Positions 9,713 through 21,629 of a stretch of 39,391 nucleotides of DNA are shown piece by piece. Below the pieces are notes generated by a model. It made no database searches and was not told where the DNA came from. It saw only the letters and a program-made list of their open reading frames with translations. This DNA is from Bacillota bacterium (GTDB taxonomy: Bacteria > Bacillota > SHA-98 > Ch115), in assembly GCA_012842565.1 (NCBI GenBank), contig DUSO01000084.1, forward strand, positions 1 through 39,391. Reading direction: 5' to 3'. Numbering within the stretch: position 1 is the first letter of the stretch; every line of letters starts with the position of its first letter. A program made the translations under genes and the position numbers.

Positions 9713-10828
9713 TCAGGCCGTGCCGAGGACCCTCGCAACCTCCTTAAGCCGCGCTATGATTGGGATGTGCTGGGGACACTTGGGTTCGCAGGCCCCACAC
9801 TCCAGGCAGTATTCAGCCTTGAGACCCCTGTTGTCTGCTCCCTCACGCATATCTCCCGGAGAAGCGAGTTGGCTGTATCCTTCACGTGCATAGTCGCGGA
9901 GCCCATAGAGTCGGAAATAGTTCATGTAGGCAAAGTTCTGGGGGATATCGATGCCATTAGGGCAAGGCATGCAATAGTTGCACCCGGTGCAGTAAAGTTC
10001 TGCCAGGCCTTTCTTTTCATTCAAGGCCTCTTGAATCTGCTTGTATTCTACGGGAGTCAAGGGTTCCTGTCGCGACGCTGTTCTCACGTTTTCAAGCACC
10101 ATCTTCATACTACCCATTCCGGACAGGGCGACTGACACATTGGGGTTGGCGAGCACAAAACGCAGGGCCAACTCCGGGGTGCTTTTTGTGCCGCCGGGTA
10201 TCAATCTTTGGACTTCGTCGGACGGCATGGCAAGCCTGCCTCCGCCCACAGGCCCCATGATGGCAACGCCCATGCCCTTTGCATGGGCGTGAGCTATGGC
10301 TTCCTCATACTTCCGGTCAAGAAGGTTATACTGGAGCAGCACTGTATCGAAGACCCCTGTGTCGATGAGCTTGATCACATTTTGAGGTTCATCATGGGAG
10401 GAAAAGCTGAGATGGCGGATCATCCCGCGACTGCGGGCCTTAATAGAAGCGTCCAGTGGGCCTCCGGGCGCGATCACCTTGGTCTCATACTCGGTAAGAT
10501 GGAGGTTGTGCATATGATAGAAGTCGATACAGTCCACCCCCAGCCGTTTCAGGGACGTCTCAAGTTGTCTCATCCAGGTATGGCCTGAGGCATCCTTTAT
10601 AGGGTTTTTCGTGGAGAGGAAAACCTTGTCCCGGCGTCCTCTTATAGCCTTGCCCACCCTGATCTCGCTATCTCCATACCCAAAGGCTGTGTCTATATAG
10701 TTCACGCCAAGGTCAATAGCCATCTGCATGATCCTGATAGACTCCATCTCGTCGTTGGGTAGCCTCATAGCTCCAAATCCCAGGGCCGACACCTTTATGC
10801 CCGTCTTCCCGAAATCACGGTACTCCAT
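9713..10828 (-). CDS. Aldo/keto reductase with C-terminal 4Fe-4S ferredoxin-type domain
   Basis: MEYRDFGKTGIKVSALGFGAMRLP, YIDTAFGYGDSE; CTGCNYCMPCPNGIDIP and CLECGACEPKCPQHIPI. Confidence 0.92.
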   Translation of the reverse strand: MEYRDFGKTGIKVSALGFGAMRLPNDEMESIRIMQMAIDLGVNYIDTAFGYGDSEIRVGKAIRGRRDKVFLSTKNPIKDASGHTWMRQLETSLKRLGVDCIDFYHMHNLHLTEYETKVIAPGGPLDASIKARSRGMIRHLSFSSHDEPQNVIKLIDTGVFDTVLLQYNLLDRKYEEAIAHAHAKGMGVAIMGPVGGGRLAMPSDEVQRLIPGGTKSTPELALRFVLANPNVSVALSGMGSMKMVLENVRTASRQEPLTPVEYKQIQEALNEKKGLAELYCTGCNYCMPCPNGIDIPQNFAYMNYFRLYGLRDYAREGYSQLASPGDMREGADNRGLKAEYCLECGACEPKCPQHIPIIARLKEVARVLGTA

Positions 10829-11047: not shown

Positions 11048-11076
11048 TTTACTTTGAGGACCTATGTGTGTATAAT
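11048..11076 (+). promoter_or_regulatory. Candidate sigma-A promoter for the tad operon
   Basis: TTTACT-N17-TATAAT just upstream of the riboswitch aptamer. Confidence 0.55.
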
Positions 11077-11116
11077 GGAATTGATACCAGAATAGACAAG
11101 CTCATAGAATTGTTTC

Positions 11117-11216
11117 CGATAAAGGCAAACTTGTCGAAAGGCAAGGACGCAAAGCTACGGGTCTAAGGCCAGGATTAGAGGTTATGGTTCCTGGTTATGA
11201 TCGCCGGGTTGCCGAA
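11117..11216 (+). ncRNA. Cyclic-di-GMP-I (GEMM-I) riboswitch aptamer
   Basis: AAAGGCAAACTTGTCGAAAGGCAAGGACGCAAAGCTACGGGTCTAAGGCC...GATCGCCGGGTTGCCGA: GGCAAAC, GAAA tetraloop on P2, GGACGCAAAGC, CTAAGG and closing GGTTGCC match the GEMM-I consensus. Confidence 0.9.
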
Positions 11217-11232
11217 GAAATAGGGCTTTCTG

Positions 11233-11280
11233 TAAGCCTGTTTTCTCCGTTTTGACACGGCGAGAGCAGGCTTATTTGTT
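11233..11280 (+). terminator. Intrinsic terminator (expression platform) downstream of the riboswitch
   Basis: TAAGCCTG...CAGGCTTA stem extended by TTTTCTCCG/CGGCGAGAG, followed by TTATTTGTTT. Confidence 0.7.
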
Positions 11281-11386
11281 TAACTGGTTATTCTCAGTTT
11301 TCTTTGCGAGAGTTTCGGGGCGGAATCCAGGGCTGGCAACCCCGGAGCCAATTGGGCATGGATTTAGATGGGCAAGGAGGTGAACA

Positions 11387-11563
11387 ATGGTGGACAAGCT
11401 CCTCAAGAGGCTCTTTTGTGAGCAGGATGGGCAGGGAATGGTGGAGTATGGCCTAATCATTGCACTCGTGGCTGTGGTCGTGATCGGAGCACTAACCTTA
11501 CTTGGCGACCAGCTAAAGGCCCTCTTTGACGGGGTTAAGGGAAAGATCGTGCCTCCATCATAG
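11387..11563 (+). CDS. flp: Flp/Fap-type major pilin (58 aa)
   Basis: Not in ORF track (below length cutoff). RBS AAGGAGGTGA; MVDKLLKRLFCEQDGQGMVEYGLIIALVAVVVIGALTLLGDQLKALFDGVKGKIVPPS with the G-x4-EYGLI pilin motif. Confidence 0.88.
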   Translation: MVDKLLKRLFCEQDGQGMVEYGLIIALVAVVVIGALTLLGDQLKALFDGVKGKIVPPS

Positions 11564-11873: not shown

Positions 11874-12338
11874 GTGTTGCTGGTATTAAGGAAGGGCGAA
11901 GATGAGACGATGCATATGATGACGGCACGCCAGTCAAAGCGCGTCTTGTACCTTCTTACTCAACAGGAGAATGGCCAGGCCCTTGTCGAGATGGCGGTTG
12001 TAGTCATGATGCTCATCCTTCTTCTCGGAGGGGTCGTTGAATTCGGCCGTATCTTGAATGCCTCTATAACGGTGGTTCATAGTTCCCGGGAGGCTGCTCG
12101 TGTCGGCATCCTCGGCAAGGACGACGACGAGATTATCCGCGTGGCAAAGGAGTCAGCAGGAGGTCTGGACCCGGCGCGCCTTGTCATATCCATCGAACCA
12201 CCAATGGCGGAACGCGTACGCGGGCGGGAGCTTACCGTGGAGGTTGGGTACCCCGTGGATGTTGTCATCCCCGTTATTGCCAATATCGTCCAGAGCCCGT
12301 TCTTAGTAAGAGGTCGAACCACCATGCGCATTGAGTGA
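11874..12338 (+). CDS. TadE-like pilus assembly/pseudopilin protein (start may be downstream, e.g. MHMMTARQ)
   Basis: QENGQALVEMAVVVMMLILLLGGVVEFGRILNASITVVHSSREAARVG, typical TadE N-terminal TM. Confidence 0.88.
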   Translation: MLLVLRKGEDETMHMMTARQSKRVLYLLTQQENGQALVEMAVVVMMLILLLGGVVEFGRILNASITVVHSSREAARVGILGKDDDEIIRVAKESAGGLDPARLVISIEPPMAERVRGRELTVEVGYPVDVVIPVIANIVQSPFLVRGRTTMRIE

Positions 12339-13336
12339 AGTCGGGGCAGGGGGTGTATAATGTGTCCCGGTCCGTTGTGCGCTGGGAGATGGGATTCCCG
12401 GGTTGCCTCATAAGCTTCACCCAAAGGCGCATCAGGGACGAACGTGGCAGCGCTGTCATTATAGTGGCCCTGGCAATGATGGTGTTGTTTTCATTTGCGG
12501 CCCTTGTCATAGACCTGGGGCTCATCTACCTGACGCGGGCGAGACTTGTCAACGCCGCTGATGCCGCTGCCCTTGCGGGAGTTGGGGCATTGCCCGATGA
12601 TCCCGCCGAGGCCAGGACCCTTGCAGAGTCTTTTGCGGTCCATAACGGAGTCGCCCCTGGCCGTATCTCTGTAGGTATCTCTGAAGACAGACGCGAGATC
12701 GCGGTTGAGCTTTCGCAGGACGTGGAGTTAAGCTTCGCTAGAGTGTTTGGCATTTCAACCGTCCGGGTTGGCGCGAGATCCCGGGCGGAGGTCGGCATCG
12801 TCAGGGGTCTCTGGGGGGCGGTACCCTTCGGCGTGAAACAACAGGATCTTGAGTACGGGGTGCAGTATACGTTGAAGTATGGCGCAGGCGGCGAAGGGGT
12901 GCCCTATCATGGTAACTTCGGCGCCCTTGCCTTGGGCGGGCGAGGCGCGAATAATTACCGCGCCAACATTATCTCGGGATACCAGGGTATACTGCGGGTG
13001 GGCGATGAAGTGGGTACAGAACCTGGAAATATGGCGGGTCCCACAAGGCAGGGAATCCAGGACCGGATAGGCCGGTGTCACCATTCCCCTCCCTGCACAT
13101 ATCAGCATTTTACTCCCGGGTGCCCGCGTGTCATATACGTTCCTATTATAGATTCCCTGGACGTCCACGGCAGGGGCACTGCCACTATTGTAGGGTTTGC
13201 AGCCTTCTTCCTCGAGGGGATAGAAGGCCAGGGGGGGCATGCCGACGTGGTGGGTCGTTTCCTAAGGCTAGTTACTGATGCTGAAATTGGAGGGAACCAG
13301 GACTTTGGCTTGCGGTCATCGAGATTGGTGGAATGA
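12335..13336 (+). CDS. TadG-like pilus assembly protein (Flp pilus-assembly TadE/G)
   Basis: DERGSAVIIVALAMMVLFSFAALVIDLGLIYLTRARLVNAADAAALAGVGAL. Confidence 0.88.
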   Translation: MKSGQGVYNVSRSVVRWEMGFPGCLISFTQRRIRDERGSAVIIVALAMMVLFSFAALVIDLGLIYLTRARLVNAADAAALAGVGALPDDPAEARTLAESFAVHNGVAPGRISVGISEDRREIAVELSQDVELSFARVFGISTVRVGARSRAEVGIVRGLWGAVPFGVKQQDLEYGVQYTLKYGAGGEGVPYHGNFGALALGGRGANNYRANIISGYQGILRVGDEVGTEPGNMAGPTRQGIQDRIGRCHHSPPCTYQHFTPGCPRVIYVPIIDSLDVHGRGTATIVGFAAFFLEGIEGQGGHADVVGRFLRLVTDAEIGGNQDFGLRSSRLVE

Positions 13337-13348
13337 GGTGGGAGCGAG

Positions 13349-14392
13349 ATGAGAGGACGCAGGCTCATCTTGTTGATGGCGGTTCTCCTGGGGACACTCA
13401 GCGCCGTTGTCAGCTATCATTACCTAAAAGGTATCACCGCTTCTATGGCCGAGAATGCCCTGCCCAAGATGGTGAGGGCTGTAGTGGCCACGAAGAGGAT
13501 CCCGCCCCGTACCTCGATAGAGTCTGACATGGTTTACTTGAAAGACATTCCTCAAGACCTACTCGGCTCGGACACGGTGACTAGTCTTCAAGACGCCGTT
13601 GGGGCGGTCACCAGGACGGAGATACTGCCGGGCGAACAGGTACGCCAGTCGAGGTTGCTGAAAAAGGGTGAATCTGCCGGGCTTGCCCTCTCTATTCCCC
13701 CAGGAAAACGTGCAGTCACCCTGGGGATGAACGAGGCCGCCGGCGTAGGCGGGTTCGTCAAGCCCATGGATCGCGTGGATGTCCTGGGTACATTCAATGC
13801 AAGCGTGGCGGGGACCGACACCGCCGTCACAGTAGTAAAAGATGCAGAAGTCCTCGCGGTCTCGCAGGAGATGCAGGATAAGGACAGGGAAAAGGCCAGG
13901 ATTCCAACCAGTGTCACCCTGGCGGTCAGTCCCCAGGAAGCCGAGAGGCTCGCTCTTGCAGAGGAGATTGGAACCTTAAAACTTGCACTACGTCCTGTTG
14001 CAGAGTCAGGCCGGCTCTTGTCCGCGTCCTCAACCGGAGTCGAAAGCACGACAAGGAAGATCTTGGCAAAGTCGAGGGTGACAACTGCCGATATCCTGCA
14101 GATGCCAGTGCGAACCGAGACACCGAGGCCCTCCCCTATCCGGGTAACCGCTCAGGTACCTCAGACTGTGGCTCAGGTACCTCAGAGTGTTGGCTCTGCC
14201 AGCCACGCTGGAGCCGCTACTCATGTTGGCGCCGCTGTTAACGTAGGAGCGGCTGCCTACGGCGGCGCGGTTGAGAAACCGGTGACGGCGGGGAAGTCGG
14301 AGGTGGTGAAGAAGCCGAAGGTAGTGGAAATCATTCGAGGTGTCGAGAGGAGTTATGTGACGCTCGGGGAGGCTAGCGAGGGGCATGAATAG
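13349..14392 (+). CDS. cpaB: Flp pilus assembly protein CpaB/RcpC (SAF domain)
   Basis: VVATKRIPPRTSIESDMVYLKDIPQ, LPGEQVRQSRLL, AVTLGMNEAAGVGGFVKPMDRVDVLGT. Confidence 0.9.
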   Translation: MRGRRLILLMAVLLGTLSAVVSYHYLKGITASMAENALPKMVRAVVATKRIPPRTSIESDMVYLKDIPQDLLGSDTVTSLQDAVGAVTRTEILPGEQVRQSRLLKKGESAGLALSIPPGKRAVTLGMNEAAGVGGFVKPMDRVDVLGTFNASVAGTDTAVTVVKDAEVLAVSQEMQDKDREKARIPTSVTLAVSPQEAERLALAEEIGTLKLALRPVAESGRLLSASSTGVESTTRKILAKSRVTTADILQMPVRTETPRPSPIRVTAQVPQTVAQVPQSVGSASHAGAATHVGAAVNVGAAAYGGAVEKPVTAGKSEVVKKPKVVEIIRGVERSYVTLGEASEGHE

Positions 14393-17003
14393 ACAATACC
14401 TGCTCCACATTCGAAAAAGTTTCCTGCATTCTTATGTTATGAAGCCGAGCATAGCAGGTACGGGGCCATATATGCCAGGTGCAGGATCACGCGTAGCTGA
14501 TGGGAGATCACATATGGCCACACTGATGGCTTTTGCTTTATTGCTGGTTACTCTCTTGCTTTCGACCCCTGGCATGGCTCAGGCTGTAGCTCCCGGAGGT
14601 CCAGGGGGAGCCTCCCCGCAGGAAGTCATGGCAGCCGAAGAGAGGGCCGAGATACTCCCAGTCATTGCGGGATGGAGCAGGCTTCTTCGCTTTGAAGATC
14701 TTTCGAGGGCGGCAGTGGGCGATCCGGGTATAGCAGATGCTGTGGTTATATCCAGTAAGGAGCTCGTGGTCAATGGGAAATCCCCCGGCATCACGACGCT
14801 CCATATATGGGACGCACGGAAGGTTCATATCTTTCGTGTCGAGGTCCATAGGGACTTAAAGTCCGTTGCCGAGAGGGTAAGGGAGCTCATCGGTATCCCT
14901 TCGGTTTCGGTGAAGGTTGCCAATGAGACCCTTTTGCTGGAGGGGTCGGTTGGGAATGATGAGGATAAGGCGCGAGCTTCCGGGATTGCCAGGGCGTTTT
15001 GCAGCAAGGTCTTGGATTTTATCTCAGTCGTGAGAGAGCCAGGGAGGGCGAGGCCGGGTGAGCCCGAAGAGCCCAGTCCGGGGGAGGAGAAGGCAACGCC
15101 TCCTCTCCTTTCGGCAGCTATCTCTGAGAAGATCGGAGATCCCAGGGTAAAGGTGATGTCTGTCGGCGATGCGGTTCTTCTGGAGGGCGTTGTGGACGAT
15201 GAAAGGGAGAGGGTCCGCGCGGAGGCAATAGCACGGCTGTTTACCGGCCGTGTCACCAATCTCATTGAGGTGCCGGAGCGCTTTGAGGTGCCTGAAGGCC
15301 CAGAGGACGAGACCGTTAAGCCCTTGCCGGGACCGGCATTTATGGCCACCCCTGCTGAGGAGGGGGTGGCCCCTATCAAGCGGGAAGTCATCTCTGCGAA
15401 GCAAGAGGCTGTTCCCGTTACACAGGAGGCCACCACTGAAAAACGGGAGGAGCAGAAACCGGAGCCTTCATTACAAGATCTCGTGCCAGAGATAGTCGAG
15501 ATGATAGACATTCCAGAGGTAAGGGTCAAGGTCGCCAGGGGGACCCTCATCCTGGAGGGCACTGTTGACAGCCGGGACAAGTCAGAAAGGGCCGAGAAGA
15601 TCGCAAAGGCATATACCGGTAAAGTCATAAACGTGATAACTGTAACAACGCCTCCCGCAACGCTTGAGATGCCTGAGAAGGTAAGGCTGGCTCAGGAGGT
15701 GAGGGAGGCTATCGGGATCCCCGGCGTCAGTGTCAGGGTGGCCAACAAGACCGTGATCCTTGAGGGAAGAGTCCAGGACCAGGGCGAGGCGGACAGGGCT
15801 GAGGAAGTGGCGAGGGCATATGCAGACAGGGTATTAAACTTCCTTACGGTCGAGAGATTAGAGCGCAAACCGGAGGGCAAGGAAGAGCCTCAACTGAAGG
15901 CCCCAGCCGCCGAAGTCTCGACACCCGGGACCGCGACGCCAGGGGAGCCTCTGGCCCCGCCACCAGCCACCGTCATTTCAGGTAAGGATGGCAGCCGGCC
16001 TGTCGAGGAGATCGTGAAATCACTCATAGGGGTAGAGGGTGTGAAGGTGGTGTCCGCGGGCGATTCGCTCCTCCTTGAAGGGGAAGTTGCAACACAGAAT
16101 GATGCGGCGCGCGCCAAGACTATCGCGGAGCTTTTTGGCAAGAAAGTGGTTAGCCTGATACGAGTGAGGAACCCGATCCAGGTGCTCCTGCAGGTCCAGG
16201 TTGTCGAGGCAAGGCGTAATCTCGGGCAGGACCTCGGCATCAGGTGGGAAGGGGTGACGGGCCAGGAAGCCATTGGGCTCCCGGCTACGGAGATGGTACC
16301 TTCTGTAAGCTCCACCCAGAGCCTCCTGTCTCCCCAAATCGGATTGATCGGGGAGGTCTTTGCCGGGTCTCCATTAGAGCGTTTGAGCTTGTTCAGGGCA
16401 CGAATCGACGCCCTCGCCCAGAAGGGACTGGTCAGGTTGCTGGCAGCCCCGAGCATGCTCACTCTGGGAGGGCAAGAGGCAAATTTCCTCGTGGGAGGCG
16501 AGATACCTATCTTCCTGGGACAAGAAGACGGGAAGATCAAGTTTGAGTGGAAACCCTATGGTGTCCGTCTCAGCATAACCCCGGCGGTCGATGACTTGGG
16601 TAACATCGATGTGAGAGTGAGTCCTGAAGTAAGCAGCTTCGACTGGGAAAATGCCCTACTTGTGAGCGGGTGGAAGATTCCAGCCTTTAAGACGAGGCGG
16701 GCGGAAACCCATCTTGTCGTGTCGGATGGAAGTACGATAGCCCTGGGGGGCCTCATTCAGGCAGAAGACACGAAGGTCCAGGATAAGATACCCCTCCTTG
16801 GTGACATTCCCGTGATAGGGGCGTTGTTCCGCAGCGAGAGATTCCAGAAACAAGAGACCGAGCTCCTGATTTTCGTAACGCCACGGATCGTGAGACTTGG
16901 TGAGACGGTTCCTCCCGGGGGCCTTATAAGGCCGCCTGTGCTGAAGGACATGCCGGATAGTCTCACCGACCCGGAGCATCTCACTCGCGATGTGAGGCGG
17001 TAG
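14385..17003 (+). CDS. cpaC: Flp pilus secretin CpaC/RcpA with multiple BON-like repeats
   Basis: C-terminal secretin domain (LLAAPSMLTLGGQEANFLVGGEIPIF...GLIQAEDTKVQDKIPLLGDIPVIGALFRSERFQKQETELLIFVTPRIV); true start may be internal. Confidence 0.92.
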   Translation: MNRQYLLHIRKSFLHSYVMKPSIAGTGPYMPGAGSRVADGRSHMATLMAFALLLVTLLLSTPGMAQAVAPGGPGGASPQEVMAAEERAEILPVIAGWSRLLRFEDLSRAAVGDPGIADAVVISSKELVVNGKSPGITTLHIWDARKVHIFRVEVHRDLKSVAERVRELIGIPSVSVKVANETLLLEGSVGNDEDKARASGIARAFCSKVLDFISVVREPGRARPGEPEEPSPGEEKATPPLLSAAISEKIGDPRVKVMSVGDAVLLEGVVDDERERVRAEAIARLFTGRVTNLIEVPERFEVPEGPEDETVKPLPGPAFMATPAEEGVAPIKREVISAKQEAVPVTQEATTEKREEQKPEPSLQDLVPEIVEMIDIPEVRVKVARGTLILEGTVDSRDKSERAEKIAKAYTGKVINVITVTTPPATLEMPEKVRLAQEVREAIGIPGVSVRVANKTVILEGRVQDQGEADRAEEVARAYADRVLNFLTVERLERKPEGKEEPQLKAPAAEVSTPGTATPGEPLAPPPATVISGKDGSRPVEEIVKSLIGVEGVKVVSAGDSLLLEGEVATQNDAARAKTIAELFGKKVVSLIRVRNPIQVLLQVQVVEARRNLGQDLGIRWEGVTGQEAIGLPATEMVPSVSSTQSLLSPQIGLIGEVFAGSPLERLSLFRARIDALAQKGLVRLLAAPSMLTLGGQEANFLVGGEIPIFLGQEDGKIKFEWKPYGVRLSITPAVDDLGNIDVRVSPEVSSFDWENALLVSGWKIPAFKTRRAETHLVVSDGSTIALGGLIQAEDTKVQDKIPLLGDIPVIGALFRSERFQKQETELLIFVTPRIVRLGETVPPGGLIRPPVLKDMPDSLTDPEHLTRDVRR

Positions 17004-17005
17004 AC

Positions 17006-18220
17006 ATGCAAGACAAGGTGAAGGCCTTTCTGGTTTCAAGTGATGCCTCTATTATAGATGGCATAAGGTCATCCCCGGGCCTCCAAGGGGACGTTGAATT
17101 CGTGGGGTCGGCTCCAGGTGCTGAGGAAGCTCTCGGCGTGATAGGCATGCTCAGGCCTGACGTAGTTCTGGTAGACATAGATACGCCCGCTGGCCCGAAT
17201 GCCGGCATAATCTCTACTATTCTTGCCGGAGCCCCCATGGTTACAGTGATCGCCATCTCCGCGAGTAGTGAGGTGTCGTCGCTGCGCCAGGCCATGATAG
17301 CCGGCGCGAGGGAATACCTCCTAAAGCCCATTGAGAGGAATGAACTTCTCGCGTCGGTAAGCAAAGCCTATGATGCGGACAGGATGCTAAGGAAACTAGA
17401 ACATGGGGCAGGCGCGGTGAGTGCCACTTTCAAGCCCCTCCAGCACAAGGGGAAGGTGATTGCGGTTTTCAGTACAAAGGGCGGGGTGGGCAAGACCACA
17501 ATCGCCGTTAACCTTGCGGTAAGCCTGGCCAGGGAAACTCGTGAGAAGGTATCAATTGTCGACCTCGACCTTGAATTCGGCGACGTGGCATTACTCCTGG
17601 ACGTAGTGCCCCCCCGGACGTTTGCCGATATCGCGAGGAGAGGGAATATAGACAGGGAGTTTGTCGAGTACTGCCTTGTGTCACATGCTTCTGGGCTTAG
17701 GATCCTGGCAGCTCCTGGGAGGCCGGAACTAGCGGAACTGGTCGGGGTTGAACATGTGCGCCGTACCCTGGGTATCCTGAAGGAGTCTTTTGACTATATT
17801 GTCGTAGATACAGCTCAATCCTTTTCAGAGAATGTACTTTCGGCCCTTGACACTGCTGACGTAATCCTCCTTGTGACTACACTAGAAATTCCTTCCATAA
17901 AAAACACAAGGATGTGCCTTGACTTGATGAAGTCCCTTCGTTATCCCGAAGAAAAGACAAAAATAGTAGTCAATCGTTCCTCACGCGAGATAGGCATAAA
18001 CCCGAGAGAGGTAGAAAAGACCCTCGGGCGCACAGTGGATGTACATGTTCCCAGCGACGGGAGGGTCGTGGTGCCGTCGGTAAACAGTGGTGTGCCGTTC
18101 GTAATGGCTGCGCCAGGGTCGGCGATTGCCAGGAGCATACGAGACCTTGCCAGGTCCCTCGCAGGTACCAGGGAGAAGACAAGGTCGTTCGCCTTGCCGG
18201 GATTCAGGTTTGCGGAATAG
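17006..18220 (+). CDS. cpaE: Pilus assembly protein CpaE/TadZ: receiver-like N-terminus plus MinD-like ATPase
   Basis: KGKVIAVFSTKGGVGKTTIAVNLAVSLA Walker A; N-terminal response-regulator-like fold (PDVVLVDIDTP, LKPIERNELLASV). Confidence 0.9.
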   Translation: MQDKVKAFLVSSDASIIDGIRSSPGLQGDVEFVGSAPGAEEALGVIGMLRPDVVLVDIDTPAGPNAGIISTILAGAPMVTVIAISASSEVSSLRQAMIAGAREYLLKPIERNELLASVSKAYDADRMLRKLEHGAGAVSATFKPLQHKGKVIAVFSTKGGVGKTTIAVNLAVSLARETREKVSIVDLDLEFGDVALLLDVVPPRTFADIARRGNIDREFVEYCLVSHASGLRILAAPGRPELAELVGVEHVRRTLGILKESFDYIVVDTAQSFSENVLSALDTADVILLVTTLEIPSIKNTRMCLDLMKSLRYPEEKTKIVVNRSSREIGINPREVEKTLGRTVDVHVPSDGRVVVPSVNSGVPFVMAAPGSAIARSIRDLARSLAGTREKTRSFALPGFRFAE

Positions 18221-18262: not shown

Positions 18263-19690
18263 ATGTCGCTGCTCAGCAGGCTAGAACATGTCGCTTTTCC
18301 ATCTGCCGGGGAGGGCAATCTTTCGCTTCCGAGGGGAGGCAATGAACTCATAAGGCGCCTTAATATTTCAACGACCGGGCGCCTTCCGATATCCCCCGGG
18401 CAGGACGATCCTTATAGGTCTCTCAAGCAAAAGATCCACAATCGCCTGGTAAAAGAGGTTGACAGGGAACTCATTGAGAAGAGTAACCAACCGGACGAGA
18501 GGGTAAAGCTGCAGGAAAAGGTAGAATCCATAGTTACGGCAGTGCTGAACGAGGAGGAAAAGACCCTCCCGAATTCCAGCCGCCAGCAGATCATATCGGA
18601 GATACTGGATGATGTCACGGGATATGGTCCAATAACGGGGCTTTTACATGATCCCACCGTAACTGAAATCATGGTCAACGGGCCTCATCAGGTATATGTT
18701 GAACGTGACGGGAGGCTCGAGCTGGCTGATGTAACGTTCAGGGACGTTGACCACGTTATGCACGTAATTGAAAGGATCGTCTCGCCGCTTGGCAGGCGGA
18801 TAGATGAGGCGAGCCCTATGGTGGACGCGAGGTTACCGGATGGATCCCGCGTAAATGCTATCATTCCGCCGCTTTCATTGGTCGGGCCCTGCATCACGAT
18901 AAGGAAATTTTCTAAAGACCCGTTTACCATAAGGGACCTAATCGAGTTCGGGACGCTCACAGAGGAGATGGCCCTCTTTTTGGAGGCCTGCGTCAAGGCC
19001 AGGCTCAACATAGTAATCTCCGGCGGCACTGGCAGCGGCAAGACGACCACGCTAAATGTGCTATCGTCTTTCATACCCGAGGATGAGAGGATCATAACGA
19101 TAGAGGATGCAGCCGAGCTTCAACTTAGGCAGCAGCATGTGGTCACGCTCGAGTCGCGCCCGCCAAACATAGAAGGGAAGGGCGCTGTGACGATTAGGGA
19201 CCTTGTCCGGAATGCACTCAGGATGCGACCTGACAGGATAGTGGTCGGGGAGGTAAGGGGAGGCGAGGCACTTGACATGCTCCAGGCCATGAATACCGGG
19301 CATGATGGCTCGCTTACCACCGGGCACGCCAATTCTCCGCGAGACCTCCTGGCTAGGCTCGAGACCATGGTACTGATGGCCGGGATGGATTTGCCTGTGA
19401 GGGCTATCAGGGAGCAGATAGCATCAGCCATAGACCTTATTATCCACCAGTCCCGGCTTCGTGATGGCACCAGGAAAGTGACCCAGGTAACCGAGGTCCA
19501 GGGGATGGAGGGCGATGTGATCGTAACCCAGGATATATTCGTCTTTGAGCAGCTTGGCGTCGATGAAGATGGACATGTGATTGGGAGGTTCCGCGGCACC
19601 GGGATAAGGCCCAAGTTTGCCGATAGGTTCGAGGCTTATGGAGTTCGCCTGCCGGCAGGCATTTATGGTCAACCGGCTCTAAGGGGGTGA
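18263..19690 (+). CDS. cpaF: Tad secretion ATPase CpaF/TadA
   Basis: LNIVISGGTGSGKTTTLNVLSSFIPEDERIITIEDAAEL; GHDGSLTTGHANSPRDLLARLETM. Confidence 0.95.
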   Translation: MSLLSRLEHVAFPSAGEGNLSLPRGGNELIRRLNISTTGRLPISPGQDDPYRSLKQKIHNRLVKEVDRELIEKSNQPDERVKLQEKVESIVTAVLNEEEKTLPNSSRQQIISEILDDVTGYGPITGLLHDPTVTEIMVNGPHQVYVERDGRLELADVTFRDVDHVMHVIERIVSPLGRRIDEASPMVDARLPDGSRVNAIIPPLSLVGPCITIRKFSKDPFTIRDLIEFGTLTEEMALFLEACVKARLNIVISGGTGSGKTTTLNVLSSFIPEDERIITIEDAAELQLRQQHVVTLESRPPNIEGKGAVTIRDLVRNALRMRPDRIVVGEVRGGEALDMLQAMNTGHDGSLTTGHANSPRDLLARLETMVLMAGMDLPVRAIREQIASAIDLIIHQSRLRDGTRKVTQVTEVQGMEGDVIVTQDIFVFEQLGVDEDGHVIGRFRGTGIRPKFADRFEAYGVRLPAGIYGQPALRG

Positions 19691-19694
19691 TTCA

Positions 19695-20654
19695 GTGATA
19701 CCTGGTGTGATAGCGGGCTTAACCTTTCTGGCGACGGTCCTGGCGGTTATAGGGATATGGGGCGGCCCCAGCTATGGCGGGTCCTCAGTGACCGGGAGAC
19801 TGCGCAAGTATGCATACAGCACTGCTCCTTCAAAGGCGGCAGGGGGGCAGACATTGAAGGTGCTCAGGGCGACCCTCAGCAAATTGGGGAAAACGTTTGG
19901 GACTGGAGACTACACGGTAAAGTTCGAGGAGAGGTTAGAGCAGGCTGGTATCCCCCTCAGTGGCTCAGAGTTCATGGTTCTCGATATCCTCGTTGCAGTA
20001 GTATCCCTGGCGCTCATTCTTATGCTTACCGGGAGTCTTCTCCCGAGCGTCCTCATGGCATCTCTCGGCGCTACCATCCCGTGGGTGTATGTCCAGATAC
20101 GCCGGCAGAGGCGGGTTGCGGCGTTTAACCGTCAAATCGCGGATGCCCTGACTACCATATCCAATTCCTTGCGGGCGGGTTACAGTTTCCTTCAGGCCAT
20201 GGATGTGGTATCCCGGGAAATGTCAGCACCGATTTCGGAGGAATTTTCCCGTACCTTGAAGGACATGAGCCTTGGGGCGACAACGGAGGAGGCCCTCACC
20301 AACCTGGCCGGGCGAGTAGGAAGCGACGACCTTGATCTTGCGGTAACAGCGATAATTATACAAAGGCAGGTCGGCGGCAATCTCTCTGAGGTCCTCGACA
20401 ATATTGTTGTTACCATACGAGAGAGGGCCAGGATCAAGGGGGAGATAATGACGCTGACCGCCCAGGGGCGCCTGTCAGGCCTGATAATTGGGCTGTTACC
20501 GCTGGGACTGGCCCTTTTTCTCTCTGCCGTCAATCCACAGTATATCAGGCTCCTTTTCTCCCATCCCTTGGGGAGGCTTATGCTGTTGTATGCGATCTTT
20601 AGCGAGATCATAGGAGTGGTCCTGGTCAGGAAAATTGTGGGAATCGAGGTCTAA
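19695..20654 (+). CDS. tadB: Type II secretion system F family protein TadB
   Basis: T2SSF domain: FNRQIADALTTISNSLRAGYSFLQAMDVVSREMSAPISEEF; position after cpaF. Confidence 0.9.
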   Translation: MIPGVIAGLTFLATVLAVIGIWGGPSYGGSSVTGRLRKYAYSTAPSKAAGGQTLKVLRATLSKLGKTFGTGDYTVKFEERLEQAGIPLSGSEFMVLDILVAVVSLALILMLTGSLLPSVLMASLGATIPWVYVQIRRQRRVAAFNRQIADALTTISNSLRAGYSFLQAMDVVSREMSAPISEEFSRTLKDMSLGATTEEALTNLAGRVGSDDLDLAVTAIIIQRQVGGNLSEVLDNIVVTIRERARIKGEIMTLTAQGRLSGLIIGLLPLGLALFLSAVNPQYIRLLFSHPLGRLMLLYAIFSEIIGVVLVRKIVGIEV

Positions 20655-20669
20655 GAATCGAGGTCTAAC

Positions 20670-21629
20670 ATGAGAATGTCTATATCAGGTATAATTGTTG
20701 TGTCAATCCTTGTATTCATTGTAGTCACATGTCTCATGCTCGGGATTTATTCCTACCTGGAGGCCGGGAGGGACCGGGTGAGGCGCCGGCTGGTAAGGAT
20801 CAGCGGTGAGGGTGAGAGGCCAGGCACCGTGAGGGGATCACGGGTGGAACCCCTTGCCCCTATAACTCAAAGGCTGGTCCTCCCGCCCTTGAGAAAGGCT
20901 GCTGGCATTATAGCGGGCTTTACCCCCCAGCGCATTAGATTATCCCTCGCAAAAAGCTTGGAGTCCTCCGGACGTCCGGGGGATATCGACTTTACGGGAT
21001 ACTTGGTATCCAAGATGCTCGCAGCCATCATATCATTCTCAGTCACGCTTTTCCTTTCTTTTTCTATGCACCTGCCGTCACAGAAGGCGTTCGTAGTATG
21101 GATGTGCGGGCTCATAGCAGGATTTATGATCCCGGATATAGTAATCAGACGGAGGCGGCTGGCCTGGGAAAAGGAGATAAGAAAGGCCCTGCCCGAGATC
21201 CTTGACCTCCTGACAGTCAGCATGGAGGCGGGCCTGGGTTTCGACAGCGCCGTCGCCAAGGTCATTGAGAAGAGGAGTGGCCCGCTGTCCACGGAGTTAG
21301 GGGTGCTGCTCCAGGAGATTCGGGTGGGAAGGCCGAGGCGGGAGGCGCTCCGGGCGCTGGCTGAAAGGACAAGGATCCAGGAGATATCGATACTGGTCGC
21401 CGCCATCATCCAGGCCGAACAGCTCGGCGTAGGAATCGCCAACACTCTGAGGGTCCAGGCGACTCAGCTTCGATTAGCGAGACGGCAGCGGGCCGAAGAA
21501 GCCGCCATGAAGGCACCGGTCAAAATGCTGTTTCCACTGGTCTTCTTTATATTCCCCACGATCTTTATCGTGCTGCTCGGGCCGGCTGCCATCCAGGTGA
21601 TTACAACTTTTGTGATGCTGGGGAAGTAG
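20670..21629 (+). CDS. tadC: Type II secretion system F family protein TadC
   Basis: T2SSF domain: IRKALPEILDLLTVSMEAGLGFDSAVAKVIEK; multiple TM; after tadB. Confidence 0.9.
   Translation: MRMSISGIIVVSILVFIVVTCLMLGIYSYLEAGRDRVRRRLVRISGEGERPGTVRGSRVEPLAPITQRLVLPPLRKAAGIIAGFTPQRIRLSLAKSLESSGRPGDIDFTGYLVSKMLAAIISFSVTLFLSFSMHLPSQKAFVVWMCGLIAGFMIPDIVIRRRRLAWEKEIRKALPEILDLLTVSMEAGLGFDSAVAKVIEKRSGPLSTELGVLLQEIRVGRPRREALRALAERTRIQEISILVAAIIQAEQLGVGIANTLRVQATQLRLARRQRAEEAAMKAPVKMLFPLVFFIFPTIFIVLLGPAAIQVITTFVMLGK

Follow-up and report, generated by a model that had tools for sequence, protein, structure and literature searches.

The leader that precedes the flp-tad operon in the window, the whole stretch of 39,391 nucleotides of Bacillota DNA that was analysed, is probably a class I c-di-GMP riboswitch that works by transcription termination and has the anatomy of an OFF switch, a reading to which we give a probability of roughly two in three. 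The aptamer, the terminator and the operon are present in the window by computation; the ligand, the co-transcriptional timing and the OFF polarity are inferred. In the proposed mechanism, the 3′ strand of the aptamer (11201-11228) would pair, without ligand, with 11234-11263, which covers the 5′ arm and the apex of the downstream terminator hairpin, and this antiterminator pairing would delay the terminator, allowing RNA polymerase to read through into flp-tad. Bound c-di-GMP would keep 11201-11228 in the aptamer, the terminator (11232-11275) would form and transcription would stop near 11281. The interest lies in a recurring regulon combined with the predicted OFF polarity, the latter being testable and somewhat unexpected.

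The leader is the intergenic stretch between an aldo/keto reductase-like open reading frame on the minus strand (9713-10828) and flp; the contig, C62, belongs to a draft genome of 2.55 Mb. Sequence analysis of the window placed a sigma-70-like promoter, a GEMM-I aptamer, a terminator hairpin and flp in this order upstream to downstream, and the preliminary description, which had named a promoter, a GEMM-I aptamer, an intrinsic terminator and then flp and the tad genes, was borne out on all four elements and on their order. The predicted sigma-70-type promoter (TTTACT-17 bp-TATAAT, 11048-11076, plus strand) was called by consensus match only, at 10 of 12 positions, and since six promoter-like sites were seen in the scanned 1.5 kb versus 1.7 expected, it is by itself weak evidence. 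The leader 3′ of the terminator was also searched for further RNA families, with none near threshold.

The flp gene (11387-11563, plus strand) encodes a Flp/Fap pilin of 58 aa (PF04964, 43.8 bits, cutoff 32.2) and has AAGGAGGTG as its Shine-Dalgarno sequence. It opens a single run of genes for Flp, TadE/G, CpaB, RcpA, TadZ, TadA, TadB and TadC, that is, a Tad/Flp operon, all on the plus strand: tadE (11910-12338, PF07811), a tadG-like gene (12335-13336, PF13400), cpaB/rcpC (13349-14392, PF16976), rcpA for a secretin with BON repeats (14385-17003; PF00263, PF04972 and PF13629), tadZ/cpaE for a receiver domain with a MinD-like ATPase (17006-18220, Pfam), the ATPase gene tadA (18263-19690, PF00437), and tadB and tadC for the platform proteins (19695-21629, PF00482 twice). 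A gene for a DUF192 protein lies in the same run (Pfam). In the RcpA protein (872 aa), several BON repeats separate the N-terminal domain from the secretin domain.

The class I c-di-GMP (GEMM-I) aptamer was located at 11115-11217 on the plus strand with the Rfam GEMM covariance models, the scoring that the preliminary description had proposed; both models gave scores above their gathering cutoffs, RF01051 (c-di-GMP-I) with 82.9 bits (cutoff 35) and RF03167 (c-di-GMP-I-GGC) with 72.2 bits (cutoff 59, E 2.3e-15). Rfam clan competition outputs solely the name c-di-GMP-I-GGC for this aptamer, and the window does share AAAGGCAAAC and a UGCCGAA 3′ strand with RF03167. This label speaks for an alternative ligand of the aptamer, either a different cyclic dinucleotide, for instance 3′,3′-cGAMP, or the one favoured by the GGC subclass, as does the statement in PMC9262584 that single bases can tune GEMM-I selectivity. 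The bases in question are, however, canonical in the window: the equivalents of Vc2 G20 and C92 are G11124 and C11212, and position 47 is A, where the RF03167 consensus in the cmscan alignment has G, while RF01051 yields the greater number of bits. The numbering of A47 and C92 follows the Vc2 structure, and "GGC" presumably denotes bases 20, 47 and 92, to judge from the RF03167 consensus. Because of the A at position 47, the default label is misleading, and the GGC name is rejected as the true subclass of this aptamer. As for cGAMP, its binding in the GEMM-I fold goes with A at position 20, as in G20A mutants, according to PMC6274999, whereas the window has G there, as do 18/18 of its flp-linked relatives. 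The earlier argument that a G at this position favours c-di-GMP over cGAMP stands, and it gains strength from A47 and C92, which together with G20 are invariant in these 18 phylum-wide aptamers.

These 18 aptamers, which lie outside the model-building sequences, also share C93 and a GAAA loop, the latter present in the window as well. Helices P1, P2 and P3 are strongly supported by covariation: in an alignment itself fitted to the model, 15 of 24 pairs were changed on both sides and 98.1% of cells were paired, and 0 of 500 shuffles reached this level. As G20, A47 and C92 are kept in the window and its relatives, c-di-GMP is the expected ligand on sequence grounds, and a different ligand appears very improbable. 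One canonical-looking aptamer of the phylum (L027) has U at the equivalent of Vc2 C92 and retains G20 and A47. The labelling also holds a warning, since clan competition can give the GGC name to c-di-GMP-I aptamers that are canonical and carry A47.

The placement of such an aptamer before flp is conserved. A Flp pilin was found in 26 of 41 near genomes, and in 15 of these 26 the aptamer lies directly upstream and co-oriented. A phylum-wide draw of 199 genomes contained 102 with Flp, from which 80 upstream fragments were taken; 17 of the 80 held an aptamer, in one case a tandem pair, and always co-oriented with flp (17/17), where about 0.03 would be expected by chance at about 3 aptamers per genome (our own estimate). 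Tandem GEMM-I aptamers stand upstream of flp at L197:222-319 and 400-497, on the minus strand. Among named genomes, reached through a search with TadA, the arrangement also occurs in Neobacillus muris, Fredinandcohnia onubensis, a Clostridiales MAG and HGW-Firmicutes-9, with about 1 kb between the aptamer and the flp that follows it in the last two; the best named TadA matches were unclassified Firmicutes MAGs, at up to 73% identity.

Folding identified an intrinsic terminator on the plus strand, made up of a hairpin (11232-11275) and the U-rich tail UUGUUU (11276-11281); the 73 nt region has a folding energy of -27.7 kcal/mol (z -4.5), and 0 of 200 shuffles were as stable. Terminator-like hairpins follow within about 100 nt 3′ of 34 of 41 related aptamers versus 36 of 164 dinucleotide-shuffled sequences; 39 aptamers of this set precede flp-tad, while two, the second aptamer of the window's genome and that of G001, serve together with that of G002 as unlinked comparisons. 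The terminator of the window starts about 16 nt past the 3′ strand of P1 and those of 21 lineage representatives 14-36 nt past it, so that aptamer and terminator can coexist, and in the window the two can form together as in Cd1. Some related loci (G147, G176, G119 and L089) have no close terminator. The last of these is the flp leader of Neobacillus muris (L089:1966-2061), in which the aptamer is present and a strong nearby terminator absent, and which may act on translation. Five flp leaders of one family of the same class (L044, L045, L046, L048 and L049) show a further arrangement, in which the 3′ strand of P1 together with its extension (CCGAAGAGAAGGGAC) can pair with a post-terminator segment (GUCUCUUCGG), giving a long helix that encloses the terminator.

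Nascent folding predicted an antiterminator on the plus strand at 11201-11263, a helix between 11201-11228, which comprises the aptamer 3′ strand and linker, and the segment 11234-11263. It has 23 bp, UCGCCG with CGGCGA included, and is mutually exclusive with both the aptamer and the terminator; its cross-domain gain is -7.8 kcal/mol at the nascent length just past emergence of the apex, and in the predicted series of folds the antiterminator comes first and the terminator follows once its hairpin is complete. The antiterminator of the window by itself is at chance level, with p 0.56 for cross-domain folding against shuffles and p 0.19 against shuffled apices, and the case for the window rests on its relatives. 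The complementary segment of the window lies mainly within the P3 3′ strand; the relatives use GUUGCC. A short hairpin at 11223-11239 was considered as a stand-alone anti-terminator and rejected; it is not conserved in G003 and is nested inside the larger predicted antiterminator.

In these relatives, the terminator apex shows complementarity to the aptamer 3′ strand, the strand with C92 and P1. Across 21 representatives this complementarity exceeded that of shuffled apices (Fisher p 1.7e-8) and was better for the leaders' own aptamer and apex than for swapped partners (p 5e-5 to 1.5e-4); a stricter whole-leader shuffle with cross-domain folding gave a weaker result (Fisher p 4.5e-6), and the combined p values are optimistic because some of the 21 are related. 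The pairing partners covary, being GUUGCC/GGCAAC in sister families, G002, G073, G087 and L107, GCUGCC/GGCAGC in G032 and G019, CCACCG/CGGUGG in G182, CCAGUUG/CAACUGG in G059 and CCGAAA/UUUCGG in L084. Covarying complementarity between aptamer and terminator apex is thus conserved across lineages.

The comparative structure favours OFF control of flp-tad. Landgraf et al. (PMC9262584) set Cd1 of C. difficile, an OFF switch in which aptamer and terminator coexist and it is the antiterminator that takes the aptamer strand, against pilM, an ON switch in which the terminator does so. In topology the flp leaders agree with Cd1, and c-di-GMP is therefore predicted to lower flp-tad transcription. The same riboswitch with the same ligand could also be ON, with c-di-GMP binding raising read-through and Tad pilus production, as the general association of c-di-GMP with surface attachment would suggest. 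An ON switch of the pilM type, however, depends on its terminator using up the aptamer 3′ strand, whereas this strand is predicted here to pair with the terminator apex, and the spacing described above lets terminator and aptamer coexist; we consider ON control unlikely.

A further alternative is a genuine aptamer with little regulation in vivo, either because another promoter mainly drives flp-tad or because the terminator is constitutive. The chance-level antiterminator of the window is in keeping with this, and the Bc1 riboswitch offers a precedent, expression downstream of it in B. thuringiensis being reported as unresponsive to c-di-GMP in PMC11218506. Aptamer and terminator have, however, been kept over many families with covariation, and no promoter-like site was found when the interval from 11280 to flp was scanned for an internal promoter. 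We regard such weak regulation as improbable, and the preferred reading remains the OFF switch.

c-di-GMP usually promotes attachment, and an OFF switch before flp-tad would run contrary to this positive link with adhesion. If correct, it would amount to an inverse RNA-level coupling of c-di-GMP to an adhesive pilus, opposite to the ON control of Geobacter pilM. OFF control would suit a pilus that acts early in attachment, or one with another role. Tad pili of Caulobacter act while adherence is still initial and reversible, ahead of the c-di-GMP spike, according to PMC13234629, and Flp pili of Micrococcus are involved in transformation, according to PMC6916266.

The genome that contains the window has the machinery for this second messenger. 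A domain search gave 4 GGDEF, 8 HD-GYP-type and 1 PilZ matches, and no EAL domain was found genome-wide, and c-di-GMP breakdown appears to rest on the HD-GYP-type proteins. A second GEMM-I aptamer of the genome, with a terminator after it, lies at G000:C172:7728-7826 on the minus strand (L060); downstream of it are a gene for a receiver with a KaiC/RecA-like ATPase and a gene for a GAF histidine kinase, functions assigned by sequence alone. The genome also has a second tad locus (L061:2125-3589, on G000:C24), for which the whole-genome search found no aptamer. This locus has a CBS-CBS-GGDEF gene for a putative diguanylate cyclase just upstream of its flp, and encodes a shorter version of RcpA than that of the window.

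Switch class, platform type and operon are each already known, and early GEMM surveys may list such flp-linked loci. The searchable literature yielded no account of Flp/Tad pili being controlled by a c-di-GMP riboswitch, but it omits many subscription papers, and this silence carries little weight. The analysis gives the c-di-GMP riboswitch a recurring regulon, the Flp/Tad pili, in Bacillota-like bacteria in which such pili have received little study. The broader proposition, that in many families of the phylum of the window and in other Bacillota class I c-di-GMP riboswitches shut off the Tad/Flp operon at high c-di-GMP, we hold to be evenly balanced.

Three systems invite direct comparison. 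Cd1 resembles the window leader in its class I aptamer, its compatible terminator downstream and an antiterminator between the aptamer 3′ strand and a downstream strand, predicted in the case of the window; it differs in governing the C. difficile flagellar operon, whereas the window leader precedes Tad pili, in having a longer interval to the decision point, and in being OFF by experiment, where the window switch is a prediction (PMC9262584). The pilM riboswitch of Geobacter metallireducens, a GEMM-Ib member, shares the GEMM-I fold, the transcriptional mode and the position upstream of pilus genes, but it has cGAMP as its ligand, is ON, uses up the aptamer strand in its terminator and serves a pilus that is not of the Tad/Flp type (PMC9262584). 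The Bc1 c-di-GMP-I riboswitch of Bacillus thuringiensis likewise comes from a Bacillota genome and has intrinsic terminators after a class I aptamer, but there are two terminators and a translational effect, and it precedes mcpE (PMC11218506).
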